Source: an uncultured Clostridium sp.
GTDB taxonomy: Bacteria > Bacillota > Clostridia > Lachnospirales > Lachnospiraceae
NCBI GenBank assembly: GCA_947644195.1
Contig: CANRZB010000010.1
Span: 1-64,000 of the forward strand
DNA length: 64,000 nt
Direction: 5' to 3'
The number at the start of each line of letters is the position of its first letter. The first letter of the stretch is position 1. Shown one piece after another: positions 31,804-48,309 of the stretch. The notes beneath the pieces are model-generated. The model was given only the letters and a program-made list of their open reading frames with translations, was not told the DNA's origin and searched no databases. The translations under genes and the position numbers were made by a program.

Positions 31804-31832
31804 TTGACAAAAAAGCTTAATGGTGCTAGTAT
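31804..31832 (+). promoter_or_regulatory. Strong promoter of the attenuator leader
   Basis: TTGACA (31804-31809) and TAGTAT (31827-31832) are spaced by exactly 17 bases. Transcription would begin near 31839, about 38 bases before the leader peptide ATG. Confidence 0.75.
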
Positions 31833-31876
31833 AAAAAACAATTTTAGTAACCATTGTATGAAGGAGAGCATACATT

Positions 31877-31939
31877 ATGAATCACAACTTATATTCCAGA
31901 CGTTATATGTATTGGTATGAAAGACGTGTCTGTTTATAA
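31877..31939 (+). CDS. Arg/Tyr-rich 20-residue leader peptide (not in ORF track)
   Basis: AAGGAGAG precedes an ATG opening a 20-codon frame that ends YSRRYMYWYERRVCL-stop. The frame has an excellent promoter and ribosome site but is followed by a terminator, not a gene, which is the layout of leader peptides that sense ribosome stalling. The stop at 31937-31939 is 12 bases before the first arm of the attenuator, so a ribosome paused at the last codons would cover it. No family known to me. Confidence 0.6.
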   Translation: MNHNLYSRRYMYWYERRVCL

Positions 31940-31951
31940 TTAGGCATAGGA

Positions 31952-32078
31952 GATGTGCTGATAATAAGCAGATAGGTCTTATTGTCTGGTGCATCGCTTT
32001 AGAATGTGAGTTGTTACTTTGACATAGCATCCTGGATAGAGAATCGCATCAGACAAAGAGTGTTTGATGCGATTTTTT
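31952..32078 (+). promoter_or_regulatory. Transcription attenuator upstream of the GNAT gene
   Basis: Three competing pairings can be drawn. Arm 1 (GATGTGCTG at 31952, plus AATAAG) pairs with arm 2 (CTTATTG...GGTGCATC, ending near 31996). Arm 2 segment TTGTCTGGTGC (31982-31992) pairs with GCATCAGACAA (32046-32056), one G-U pair. AATCGCATCA (32042-32051) pairs with TGATGCGATT (32065-32074), followed by TTTTTT. The last is an intrinsic terminator and the second pairing would prevent it. A ribosome stalled at the leader-peptide end would mask arm 1 and favour read-through into the acetyltransferase. Confidence 0.65.
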
Positions 32079-32127
32079 ATATGATAGGAAAGTAGTCCAT
32101 ACTGGACTATTCCTATCATATAAAAAA
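32073..32127. repeat. Long near-perfect palindrome
   Basis: TTTTTTATATGATAGGAA (32073-32090) pairs with TTCCTATCATATAAAAAA (32110-32127), and inside it TAGTCC pairs with GGACTA with a 2-base bulge. It begins in the T-run of the attenuator terminator. It has the look of a dispersed palindromic element or a second, bidirectional terminator. Confidence 0.7.
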
Positions 32128-32232
32128 CGCTCCGCGGGATGCGCACTCGCGCGTAATGAAGATGTCGTTTACACGACCGCGCTCTGCGCGAGAGTTTCAA
32201 AAGCGAACTGAGAGTTCGCTTTACGAAACTCT
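32128..32232. repeat. GC-rich inverted-repeat segment before the GNAT gene
   Basis: After the palindrome comes a CGCG-rich stretch (GCGCACTCGCGCG, CGCGCTCTGCGCG). A nested hairpin follows: AGAGTTTC (32191-32198) with GAAACTCT (32225-32232), enclosing AAAGCGAACT (32200-32209) with AGTTCGCTTT (32213-32222). The composition is unlike its neighbours. No coding capacity is supported here. It may be a miniature repeated element. Confidence 0.6.
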
Positions 32233-32256
32233 TTCTTATGCAAAAAGGAGGATTTT

Positions 32257-32742
32257 ATGGAGAACAATATCATAATACGGTTTGCAAGAGCAGACGAATT
32301 GGAGCAAGTGAATCAAATCAGGAAATCGGTGCATGAGTTGCATGTCCGAGGCAGAGCAGATTTATTTCAGCCCGATGGTTGGAGAGAGATCAAAGAGGTT
32401 GTTAAGGAACGATTTGATTCTGAGAAGAGCAGTGTCATCGTGGCATGTTTTGACGACCTAATTGTGGGTTTTGCCATAGTTCAGTATATTCACAGGGCAG
32501 AAACTGCATTTCGTCCGGCGCAGGATTTTTGCCATATTGAGGAATTTGGTGTGGATCAGAAATTTAGGCGCCAGGGAATTGCATCAGCATTAATTGATTT
32601 TATTCGTGAGGATGCATCAAACCATGGATTTCAGAAGTTAGAGTTGAATATGTATGAATTCAATGACAGCGCCCTAAAATTTTATGAGAGTGTCGGATTT
32701 CACACATATCGGAGGGATCTGGAATTGCTGGTAGAAAAGTAA
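32257..32742 (+). CDS. GNAT-family N-acetyltransferase
   Basis: A 161-residue acetyl-CoA-dependent N-acetyltransferase. The acetyl-CoA loop is QKFRRQGIASALIDFI (RxxGxA form) near residues 107-122, followed by the C-terminal LNMYEFNDSALKFYESVGF motif typical of GNAT domains. AAAGGAGGA precedes the ATG. The substrate is unknown. Because it sits behind an apparent leader-peptide attenuator, induction by a ribosome-targeting compound and drug or peptide acetylation is a plausible role, but protein or metabolite acetylation cannot be excluded. Confidence 0.88.
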   Translation: MENNIIIRFARADELEQVNQIRKSVHELHVRGRADLFQPDGWREIKEVVKERFDSEKSSVIVACFDDLIVGFAIVQYIHRAETAFRPAQDFCHIEEFGVDQKFRRQGIASALIDFIREDASNHGFQKLELNMYEFNDSALKFYESVGFHTYRRDLELLVEK

Positions 32743-36273: not shown

Positions 36274-37281
36274 ATGAATAAATTGACCGAACAAGCAATA
36301 GAAGAGTTTTATAAATATAATAAAATTGATGATAAAATATATAGTTTGAATGGAAAAGATAGACTTTTCGGTTTTATTTTGGATAGAAATATTCCCCGTG
36401 AAATTTTAGAAACTAATCTTACTCACTGGTTAGACAATTTTGGTTTAGATGATCAAGAAACTTTTTTAGCGCTGTTTTCCCATTTTCGGTATATTCCGAA
36501 AAATATATTTGAATATATGGTTACCTGTTTTGTTGACAGGATGAAAAAAGAATTAAGTGAATATGATTTGAAAGAGACATTATTTGTTTTTGTTGAATCC
36601 CCAAAAGGATGTAAATCAGGAATTGATGATTTTGCAGTTGCACTATGGGAATGTCTAAAAGGTGAGATTTGGAAGGAGCAATTAATTACTCATTTTTCTA
36701 TGTTAAACGAGAAAAAGATTTTAGAAAATCGAAATATTATCTTTGTCGATGATATCATTGCGACGGGGTTTTCAATGAATGAAAATATCAAAAAATTTTT
36801 TGAAAAGTTTCCTCAATGTAAAAATTCTAATATTAAATATTATGTAGCATCTCTGTTTTTGACAAGGAGAGGAAAAAAATTTATAGAAAAAAAGAGAAGC
36901 AATATGACTTTGATGGTAGAAAAAGGTTTGTTGAAGTCAGCATTTAGAGGTAATTATATTTTTTCAAGTGATGAATTGAAGAAAAAAGAAGAATGTGTTT
37001 TACCATATGAAGACAAGGCGGGGAAGGAATATGATGGGAAAAAATACGTGATGGGATTTTCGGAAAGTAAATTATTAATTGGATTTTACTATGAAATTCC
37101 CAATAATACATTATCAACTTTTTGGAGACATACAGAAGACTTTACCCCTTTATTTCCAAGGAGTTCAGAGCATGCCTTTTCGAGTAAGTTAACTTTAAAG
37201 GAAATTATTGAAAAGAAGAAAAAGATGGCGAACAGAGCGTATGTGATAAATAGCATGGGAGGATATGATGAAAGCGAATGA
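36274..37281 (+). CDS. Retron effector: phosphoribosyltransferase-like protein
   Basis: A 335-residue protein with the PRPP-binding signature of type I phosphoribosyltransferases, IIFVDDIIATGFS, near residues 154-167 (hydrophobic stretch, Asp-Asp, then TG). The N-terminal ~90 residues look helical and carry no motif I know. PRTase-like proteins paired with a winged-helix protein occur as effectors in one class of retrons. In defence retrons the effector is held inactive by the RT-msDNA complex and released on phage attack. It overlaps the next gene by 17 bases. Base composition is much more AT-rich than the window average, consistent with horizontal transfer. Confidence 0.8.
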   Translation: MNKLTEQAIEEFYKYNKIDDKIYSLNGKDRLFGFILDRNIPREILETNLTHWLDNFGLDDQETFLALFSHFRYIPKNIFEYMVTCFVDRMKKELSEYDLKETLFVFVESPKGCKSGIDDFAVALWECLKGEIWKEQLITHFSMLNEKKILENRNIIFVDDIIATGFSMNENIKKFFEKFPQCKNSNIKYYVASLFLTRRGKKFIEKKRSNMTLMVEKGLLKSAFRGNYIFSSDELKKKEECVLPYEDKAGKEYDGKKYVMGFSESKLLIGFYYEIPNNTLSTFWRHTEDFTPLFPRSSEHAFSSKLTLKEIIEKKKKMANRAYVINSMGGYDESE

Positions 37282-37558
37282 GAGGATACTATTAACTTAT
37301 ATTGGCAAATATAAGAAAGTTGATTTTGCATTTTTTGCAGATGAGTTTAACATTTCTCCCATGGTAATTTTAGACTTGGTTGTGCAATTAATTAATGATG
37401 AATTTATTAAGGTTTGTGAGGATGAACTTATTCTTACAGAAAAAGGAATGAAAGAAGTATATGAATCATTTAACAAGATTTTTCTGGAAGAAGAAAATAT
37501 ACCAAAATTTGATTGGACAGAACTATATATTCCTCAAAACTTTGGGGAAGTATTGTAA
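37265..37558 (+). CDS. Retron accessory winged-helix protein
   Basis: A 97-residue protein whose first ~70 residues fit a winged-helix domain (VDFAFFADEFNISPMVILDLVVQLINDEFIKV, then a strand pair and EKGMKEVYESF). GGGAGG precedes ATGATG, and the gene overlaps the PRTase gene by 17 bases, so the two are coupled. It ends 26 bases before the msr-msd RNA. It may bind the msDNA or the PRTase, or autoregulate the operon; the AT palindrome at 36176 is a possible site. Confidence 0.75.
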   Translation: MMKANERILLTYIGKYKKVDFAFFADEFNISPMVILDLVVQLINDEFIKVCEDELILTEKGMKEVYESFNKIFLEEENIPKFDWTELYIPQNFGEVL

Positions 37559-37584
37559 TGATGGAAGATTATATGTTAATATAA

Positions 37585-37738
37585 AAAGAGAGTAACTGGA
37601 TTGGAGTGTATTCGCTCCCTTGAAAAAGGGCACTAACATCACAATATATACGAGTTGTTCGCAGGTAAGGCGTTTGCTCACAACTCGAATATATTGTGAA
37701 TTTTTGCAAGGTATTGATATTAAGCAGTTACTCTCTTT
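37585..37738 (+). ncRNA. Retron msr-msd noncoding RNA
   Basis: The RNA is bounded by perfect 14-base a1/a2 inverted repeats: AAAGAGAGTAACTG (37585-37598) and CAGTTACTCTCTTT (37725-37738). The msr part has two short hairpins (GGAGTG/CGCTCC at 37603-37618, CCCTT/AAGGG at 37617-37630). The msd part is one long hairpin: CACAATATATACGAGTTGT (37640-37658) with its complement at 37680-37698, 18 of 19 pairs, and a 21-base loop. A G next to a1 (37598 or 37599) is the likely branch nucleotide. The ORF track's RT start at 37620 lies inside this RNA and cannot be right. Confidence 0.88.
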
Positions 37739-37754
37739 GAATGAGGAATTTGAA

Positions 37755-38747
37755 ATGGATAAAACCGTTTATTTACATAGGTTAAAAGTAAATATGCAGG
37801 GCAAATATGAATCTGAGTATATTGACAGATGCGTTTTTTATGCAGAAAGTCTATTGGATCGAAATCTGCCTGTAATATTTGATATGAACCATATATATGC
37901 TATATTACAGCTGGGGTGTATCAATTTAGATTGGTATAACGATTTTGGAATCAAGCGGAGGAATGGAACGGTTCGAATTATTTCTGCACCGAGTCGGCCG
38001 CTAAAATATCGACAGCGATGGATCTTAGATGAAATTTTATCTAAGATAGAAATAATGCCCTGCTGTGAGGGATTTACGAAAGGACATTCTATTGTTACTA
38101 ATGCAAGCAAGCATATTGGCTATGCTGAGACTCTGACGGTAGACATGAAGGACTTTTTCCCTAGTATAAAGGAGAAACAGATTGTTGATGTGTTTCGGGA
38201 AGTTGGTTATACGCAGGAAGTAGCCGTAACTTTATCTAGTCTATGTTGCCATGAGGGATGTCTGCCACAGGGAGCGCCTACCAGCCCGCAATTATCCAAT
38301 ATTATCTGCAAATCATTAGATAGGGATCTTATAGAGTTTTCGAAAAAATATGGTTTGGTTTATAGCAGATACGCAGATGACTTAACCTTTTCAGGTAATC
38401 AGGATTTAAATTGTACTGTTTCTCAAATAAAAGGAATCATACAAAATCATGGGTTTAGAATCAATGACAGAAAGACGAGATTATATACTGGAAAATACAG
38501 AAGAATTGTAACAGGTCTTATCGTTACGGAACATGGATTACGTGTTCCTCGTGAATATAAGAGAAAATTAAGGCAAGAAATATATTATTGTAAGAAATTT
38601 GGAGTAACGCAACATTTAAAGAATACGAATTCTTCTAAAGTAGTTAATTTTAAAGAATTCTTGTATGGAAAAGCATATTATATTAAAATGGTTGAACCAA
38701 AGACGGGGAAAAAGTTTTTGGAACAATTAGATGAAATAGAATGGTAA
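37755..38747 (+). CDS. Retron reverse transcriptase
   Basis: The start is set at ATG 37755 (MDKTVYLHRL), 16 bases after the a2 repeat with AGGAA upstream, giving 330 residues, the usual retron RT size. RT motifs: TVDMKDFFPSI (first catalytic Asp), LPQGAPTSPQLSN, and YADDLTFSG near 205 with the catalytic Asp pair. RIVTGLIV carries the VTG motif used by retron RTs for recognising their RNA. It would prime on the branching G and copy the msd into msDNA. Together with the upstream RNA, PRTase and winged-helix genes this is a complete, apparently intact retron. Confidence 0.94.
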   Translation: MDKTVYLHRLKVNMQGKYESEYIDRCVFYAESLLDRNLPVIFDMNHIYAILQLGCINLDWYNDFGIKRRNGTVRIISAPSRPLKYRQRWILDEILSKIEIMPCCEGFTKGHSIVTNASKHIGYAETLTVDMKDFFPSIKEKQIVDVFREVGYTQEVAVTLSSLCCHEGCLPQGAPTSPQLSNIICKSLDRDLIEFSKKYGLVYSRYADDLTFSGNQDLNCTVSQIKGIIQNHGFRINDRKTRLYTGKYRRIVTGLIVTEHGLRVPREYKRKLRQEIYYCKKFGVTQHLKNTNSSKVVNFKEFLYGKAYYIKMVEPKTGKKFLEQLDEIEW

Positions 38748-48157: not shown

Positions 48158-48309
48158 CTCTTATTCAGAGTGGTGGAGAGTGAAGGCTCTGTGAAACCAC
48201 GGCAACCCCATTGCGGAAGGTGCCAATCTCAGCGAGGAATCGATCAATAAGAGGGTTTGAAGTCTATACGATGAAATTCAAGTCCATCTTTTGGTTAGGT
48301 GGACTTTTT
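48158..48309 (+). promoter_or_regulatory. SAM-I (S-box) riboswitch with terminator
   Basis: P1 is formed by CTCTTATT (48158-48165) and AATAAGAG (48246-48253). Between them are the hallmark S-box elements CAGAGTGGTGGAG, GAAGGCTCTGTGAAACC, CGGCAACC and GGTGCCAATC. Downstream AAGTCCA (48280-48286) and TGGACTT (48300-48306) with a T-run form the terminator. SAM binding should stop transcription into metK. Confidence 0.95.

Follow-up and report, generated by a model that had tools for sequence, protein, structure and literature searches.

What controls the acetyltransferase gene at positions 32257-32742 of the window (the whole stretch of 64,000 nucleotides analysed), and which signal does its upstream region read? 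The gene encodes a 161-residue GNAT acetyltransferase (PF00583, E = 1.2e-16), here called GNAT D, and like the parts of the attenuator ahead of it lies on the plus strand. An earlier note, made from the sequence, described a consensus promoter, a strong ribosome site, a 20-codon leader frame and three competing pairings ahead of the gene, and all of these lie where it placed them. The sigma-70-type promoter (31804-31832) consists of TTGACA (31804-31809), a 17-nt spacer and TAGTAT (31827-31832), the latter preceded by TG. It is followed by the leader Shine-Dalgarno sequence AGGAGA (31862-31867) and the leader frame (31877-31939), which starts with ATG at 31877, encodes MNHNLYSRRYMYWYERRVCL in 20 codons and ends with TAA at 31937-31939.

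The RNA downstream of the frame offers several mutually competing helices. Arm 1 (31952-31972) begins 12 bases past the leader stop, as had been noted, and is divided into an outer part (31952-31958) and an inner part (31964-31972) that is contested by arm 2 and by an upstream segment, S. Arm 2 (31978-31995) has three possible partners: arm 1, leader codons, and arm 3 (32042-32055), the 5' arm of the terminator. The antiterminator formed by arms 2 and 3 joins 31982-31992 to 32046-32056 through 11 base pairs with one G-U, matching the single wobble of the earlier description. The intrinsic terminator (32042-32078) has a 14-bp stem with one G-U followed by T6; arm 4 and the T-run occupy 32061-32078, with arm 4 at 32061-32074 sharing two bases with the T-run at 32073-32078. 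Between arms 1 and 2, and overlapping the start of the latter, is the block TAGGTCT (31973-31979), whose TA-GTCT stands opposite the AGAC-GTA codons of the leader. Three elements are absent from the earlier note: an outer helix between leader codons 3-7 (31885-31896) and the segment GAATGTGAGTTG at 32002-32013, a stop-codon helix in which S (31929-31937, the final leader codons and stop) pairs with 31964-31972, and a repeat copy at the T-run. The 5' leader RNA of the window has a folding energy of -80.7 kcal/mol, a value equalled by none of 200 dinucleotide shuffles (z = -6.8), and that of one related locus, L042, reaches z = -8.0.

The complete attenuator layout is found again at 26 other loci, for a family total of 27 loci in 25 genomes, all within the same bacterial family as the window's genome. 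Identification began with a genome of the same genus (G253), in which a GNAT 56-57% identical to that of the window is preceded by a similarly built leader, MQNLHFTMNYMYMYYRRTSK, complete with hairpins and a terminator; five further loci came from a pattern search. A covariance model was then made from seven loci, extending from the leader to the segment after arm 2 and excluding the terminator and the GNAT gene. Both are thus invisible to the model and serve as independent tests of its matches, which occur in 21 of 397 same-family genomes and are spread over 20 genera, the sample spanning more than 330, a breadth that suggests Lachnospiraceae. A second model recovered three more same-genus loci held out from model building, and the total of 27 consists of the covariance-model matches, the G253 locus and those in the three held-out genomes. 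Weak matches to the leader models on the opposite strand of five loci (L047, L072, L092, L045 and the window) point to the nearly palindromic architecture of the long hairpin.

Beyond this bacterial family the leader is not seen. Among 391 genomes sampled across the class, a strict peptide pattern matches only in the window's own genome, as does model R2 in a sample of the same kind; approximately 16 of the 391 belong to the same family, and the leader is absent from the ∼374 sampled genomes of other families. Comparison of the leader DNA with plasmids and phages, and of exact patterns with viral contigs, gave no match and hence no named host or mobile carrier. In Rfam 15, neither the window leader nor those of ten related loci match any family at the gathering score, and a lax threshold yields only chance miRNA and snoRNA matches. 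Literature searches returned no account of this leader. The same window contains a recognised riboswitch elsewhere, a SAM riboswitch at 48158-48253 (RF00162, 73.8 bits).

The conserved parts of the family indicate what kind of regulator it is. Of 24 loci examined, 20 have a TTGAC box 46-73 nt 5' of the leader ATG and 23 a Shine-Dalgarno site; a terminator hairpin with T-run was recovered by script at 22, with a weaker one at L071 recognised by eye. The leader is 57-69 nt long and a multiple of three in all 23 loci with a recognisable frame; the spacing from stop to TAGGTCT, 25-46 nt in the same number of loci, follows no such rule. With divisibility by three strict in the frame and absent from the adjoining spacer, and with ribosome sites preserved, translation of the frame matters. 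TAGGTCT is the same in all 23 aligned loci (L134, found later, has CAGGTCT). The invariance of this block and its adjoining bases is the kind of feature expected of a metabolite-binding riboswitch in which the short frame is incidental, a reading that is nonetheless very improbable given the frame-length rule with its Shine-Dalgarno site, the overlap of the helices with the coding frame and the lack of an Rfam family at gathering score. The attenuator family is real, conserved and apparently undescribed, and it is of a known general kind.

A regulator that works through alternative pairings is expected to preserve them as its sequence diverges, and the earlier note had named compensatory variation of the arms as a check. 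RNAalifold recovers only 8 pairs from 23 sequences, a poor consensus attributable to competing helices and to insertions and deletions; swap and ribosome-position tests were therefore used. In the swap test, cognate arms were scored by duplex energy against arms exchanged among 16 diverged loci (mean identity 0.64; 20000 permutations), the resulting figures being inflated by the shared ancestry of the loci. Cognate arms pair better for arm 2 with arm 3 (-14.57 vs -13.25 swapped; z = -3.0, 11/20000) and for arm 1 with arm 2 (-13.64 vs -11.71; z = -4.2, 1/20000), so that the expected compensation is present for both. It is present as well for S with arm 1 (-15.04 vs -10.69; z = -5.5, 0/20000) and for the outer helix (-13.10 vs -9.08; z = -5.7, 0/20000). 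These four pairings are maintained by compensating change, and that of the leader middle with arm 2 is so only weakly (-11.18 vs -10.36; z = -1.9, 675/20000).

Where must a ribosome stand to throw the switch? For 22 loci, transcripts with arm 3 as their 3' end were folded with an assumed ribosome footprint moved codon by codon, a thermodynamic calculation without co-transcriptional kinetics. Averaged over the loci, the expectation for 2:3 pairing is ∼10 pairs when the P site lies between stop-14 and stop-10; it declines through stop-8 to reach 2-3.2 pairs between stop-4 and the stop, compared with 4.0 in the ribosome-free RNA. The contrast between early and late positions is 7.5 for the real sequences versus a mean of 0.06 when leader and S are shuffled (25 sets; the top set has a mean of 1.6). 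Four of the 22 loci depart from this pattern: L078 and L079 have no predicted switch, with 2:3 always formed, and L090 and L092 have little. In the window itself, the antiterminator is predicted with P-site codons 1-13, is lost at 14-19 and partly returns at the last two; its ribosome-free value of 9.2 expected 2:3 pairs means that the OFF state without a ribosome is not reproduced for this copy. These results do not support the earlier proposal that a ribosome stalled at the stop codon is the one that acts; they predict the opposite, OFF for codons 14-19 and ON for codons 1-13.

The following model would account for the folding results. In the ribosome-free RNA, arm 2 would be occupied by leader codons and arm 1 by S, leaving arms 3 and 4 to form the terminator. 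A ribosome that translates the leader to its end would cover S and the stop; arm 1 would thereby be released and capture arm 2, and transcription would again terminate. A stall in the early or middle leader would block the pairing of leader and arm 2 while S keeps hold of arm 1, making arm 2 available. Arm 2 would then pair with arm 3 as the antiterminator, and RNA polymerase would read through into the acetyltransferase gene. The element is probably a ribosome-mediated transcription attenuator that responds when translation slows or halts within the first two thirds of the leader. Its conservation, co-varying arms, position-dependent folding and GNAT linkage are established computationally. 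The leader-peptide transcription attenuator proposed by the earlier note is strongly supported by the conserved family, by the co-variation of its arms and by the switch predicted from ribosome position; that note was right on the class of regulator, wrong on the decisive ribosome position and unproven on resistance.

The signal that slows the ribosome can be approached through the leader peptide. Its consensus across 23 leaders is YMYMYYRR with many substitutions, and the existence of such a motif is what an arrest peptide would display if one inhibitor class, acting with the YMYMYYRR nascent chain, caused a one-codon stall as sole trigger of antitermination, in the style of the ermC and cat leaders. 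The predicted ON range of the window leader, which stops at codon 13 within this motif, also agrees with arrest of this type. The middle residues are freely exchanged, however (YMYMYY, DMDMDL, HMSIHH, AYIIYY and NMPMCD all occur), and Gly replaces the first Arg in 6 of 23 leaders. Constraint on the peptide is likewise weak, with pN/pS at 0.60 in frame, barely different from the 0.70 in frame +1, and folding gives ON for any stall in the early leader. Drug-specific arrest is rather unlikely on this evidence. The tyrosines raise a second prospect, that of an amino-acid-starvation attenuator reading charged tRNA-Tyr (or Arg or Met) at the Tyr-rich stretch, and most leaders do carry at least 4 Tyr in ∼20 codons. 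Two loci, L085 and L092, nevertheless have no Tyr in the stretch despite a predicted switch or intact arms, and the leaders precede acetyltransferase and detoxification-like genes, not ones for amino-acid synthesis or transport, which makes starvation sensing quite improbable. A queuosine-codon sensor was considered as well, as Tyr is mostly replaced by His, Asp or Asn; it was rejected because these replacements are close to single-base changes of TAY and GNAT genes do not fit. Broad sensing of slowed translation is favoured over a single drug-specific arrest peptide, because the mid-leader residues are variable and pN/pS in frame is near its +1 value. Conservation of the leader codons seems due to base pairing in the RNA and to where the ribosome stands, more than to a fixed arrest peptide.

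In the window's strain, the path from attenuator to gene is interrupted by a ∼168-bp repeat (32073-32240), one of a dispersed set, inserted in or next to the terminator T-run. At least 10 copies are present in the same genome (G000; copies L002-L008 and L115-L130). They are built from a 55-bp near-perfect palindrome, beginning TTTTTTATATGATAGG, and a GC-rich hairpin part, some consisting of the palindrome only, and most have their start precisely at an intrinsic terminator's T-run. The repeat is a putative small terminator-targeting, MITE-like element. The T6 of the attenuator is kept and the GNAT gene is pushed ∼165 bp away, behind extra hairpins; with this insertion, regulation in the strain is possibly altered. 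The local attenuator could even be a relic that no longer controls the gene, if the repeat contributes a structure of its own or another stop signal. Both the position of the repeat past the terminator and its end, a GAGTTTC...GAAACTC hairpin followed by TTTCTTAT, suit such a loss of control. Against it, the T-run is retained, the GNAT gene keeps an undamaged frame and ribosome site, and a terminator scan called none on the plus strand within the repeat, and on balance the loss is unlikely. Further along the window, genes at 36274-38747 match PADLOC components of retron type III-A: a phosphoribosyltransferase-like protein (36274-37281, E = 4e-50) and a reverse transcriptase (37620-38747, E = 9e-128); a small ORF (37265-37558) separates the two.

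The genes behind the leader bear on what the probable stall sensor serves. A GNAT gene is first or nearly first at 22 of 27 loci, and in the first set of 24 it comes first, or directly after a GNAT remnant, in 21. The exceptions in that set are L084 (an ABC exporter), L077 (a GNAT C not before 2.3 kb) and L092, the second copy in genome G070, which is followed by a phosphorylase remnant. Of the three loci found later, one has a GNAT B with an MBL-fold gene, one a GNAT B fragment after a decayed attenuator, and one no GNAT gene within 1.5 kb; in total, 5 of 27 loci lack an intact nearby GNAT gene and have other genes, remnants or none. The GNATs fall into five subgroups, A to E, of which A and B are frequently one fused frame. 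Behind the same leader in G253 stands a relative 57% identical to the window's GNAT D. Four closer orthologues in other genera (G096, G107, G238 and G030) have no recognised leader upstream, and the leader is therefore not tied to this subgroup.

Frequent second genes encode PNP_UDP_1 phosphorylases and PhnP-like MBL-fold proteins, and operons hold up to three GNATs, in some cases with a NUDIX or pyridoxamine-oxidase-like gene. The operon at L107 (G414:C35) comprises a GNAT A remnant, a GNAT C-B fusion, a nucleoside phosphorylase, an AadA-like nucleotidyltransferase and a peptidase S51 protein. Such neighbourhoods look like detoxification. Matches of the window GNAT to known resistance acetyltransferases fall far under the curated cut-offs, the AadA-like protein is under them as well, and protein searches of genome and viral contigs with the GNAT found distant GNATs only or no match. 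Antibiotic induction, and a GNAT that modifies a ribosome-targeting compound, as the earlier note proposed, are compatible with the gene neighbourhoods, and resistance is plausible. We infer that the natural trigger may be a translation inhibitor and that the GNAT enzymes may modify that compound or a related one. On a 3-kb contig (L045, G253:C28), a leader copy and GNAT B lie just behind a 452-residue gene whose relaxase-like reading comes from sequence inspection, as it matches no NCBIfam model; the arrangement hints at mobility of the cassette.

How does the family relate to known systems? The closest logic is that of the ermK and msrD attenuators of Bacillus and Streptococcus, in which a ribosome stalled within a short leader frame tips the RNA from an intrinsic terminator to an antiterminator ahead of a resistance gene (PMC5418344). 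The family would share this route from stall to antitermination and differs in leader sequence and RNA, in commanding acetyltransferase cassettes, and in its broad predicted ON range as opposed to one drug-specific codon. In Escherichia coli, the toiL uORF of topAI-yjhQ is a leader frame within a repressive hairpin that is relieved by stalls at many positions and by several antibiotic classes (PMC12121999). The placement of the frame and derepression by stalls at many positions, in the family as predicted from folding, are common to both; toiL acts on translation and Rho termination, whereas the family uses an intrinsic terminator, and no sequence relation is recognised. The vmlR attenuator of Bacillus subtilis (PMC9226507) also works by transcription attenuation in a Gram-positive, there of an antibiotic-responsive gene, with a different RNA and a different gene, for an ABC-F protein. 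In the cat leaders, a leader peptide controls chloramphenicol acetyltransferase (listed in PMC5418344). Here too a leader peptide precedes an acetyltransferase, which in cat modifies a ribosome-targeting drug. Control of cat is by translation attenuation and its enzyme is not a GNAT, both of which set it apart from the family. Finally, the aac/aad leader RNA, on the account of Jia et al. 2013 given in PMC5418344, precedes aminoglycoside acetyl and adenyl transferases and is a debated riboswitch acting on translation; judged by that account, the family differs in its translated leader and intrinsic terminator.

The leader family and its acetyltransferase genes suggest that one bacterial family possesses an inducible module, as yet undescribed, for detoxification or antibiotic resistance. 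A more specific and tentative proposal, possible if short of even, is that the leader is a family-wide sensor of translation stress commanding exchangeable cassettes of GNAT and nucleoside-phosphorylase-like or MBL-fold enzymes, which would inactivate a ribosome-targeting compound, perhaps nucleoside-like or aminoglycoside-like, from the same habitat. A conserved leader that responds to stalling marks the genes downstream as likely defences against translation inhibitors, and it would provide a ready inducible reporter for finding the compound. It thereby points to uncharacterised acetyltransferases and partner enzymes as possible resistance genes in a large bacterial family.
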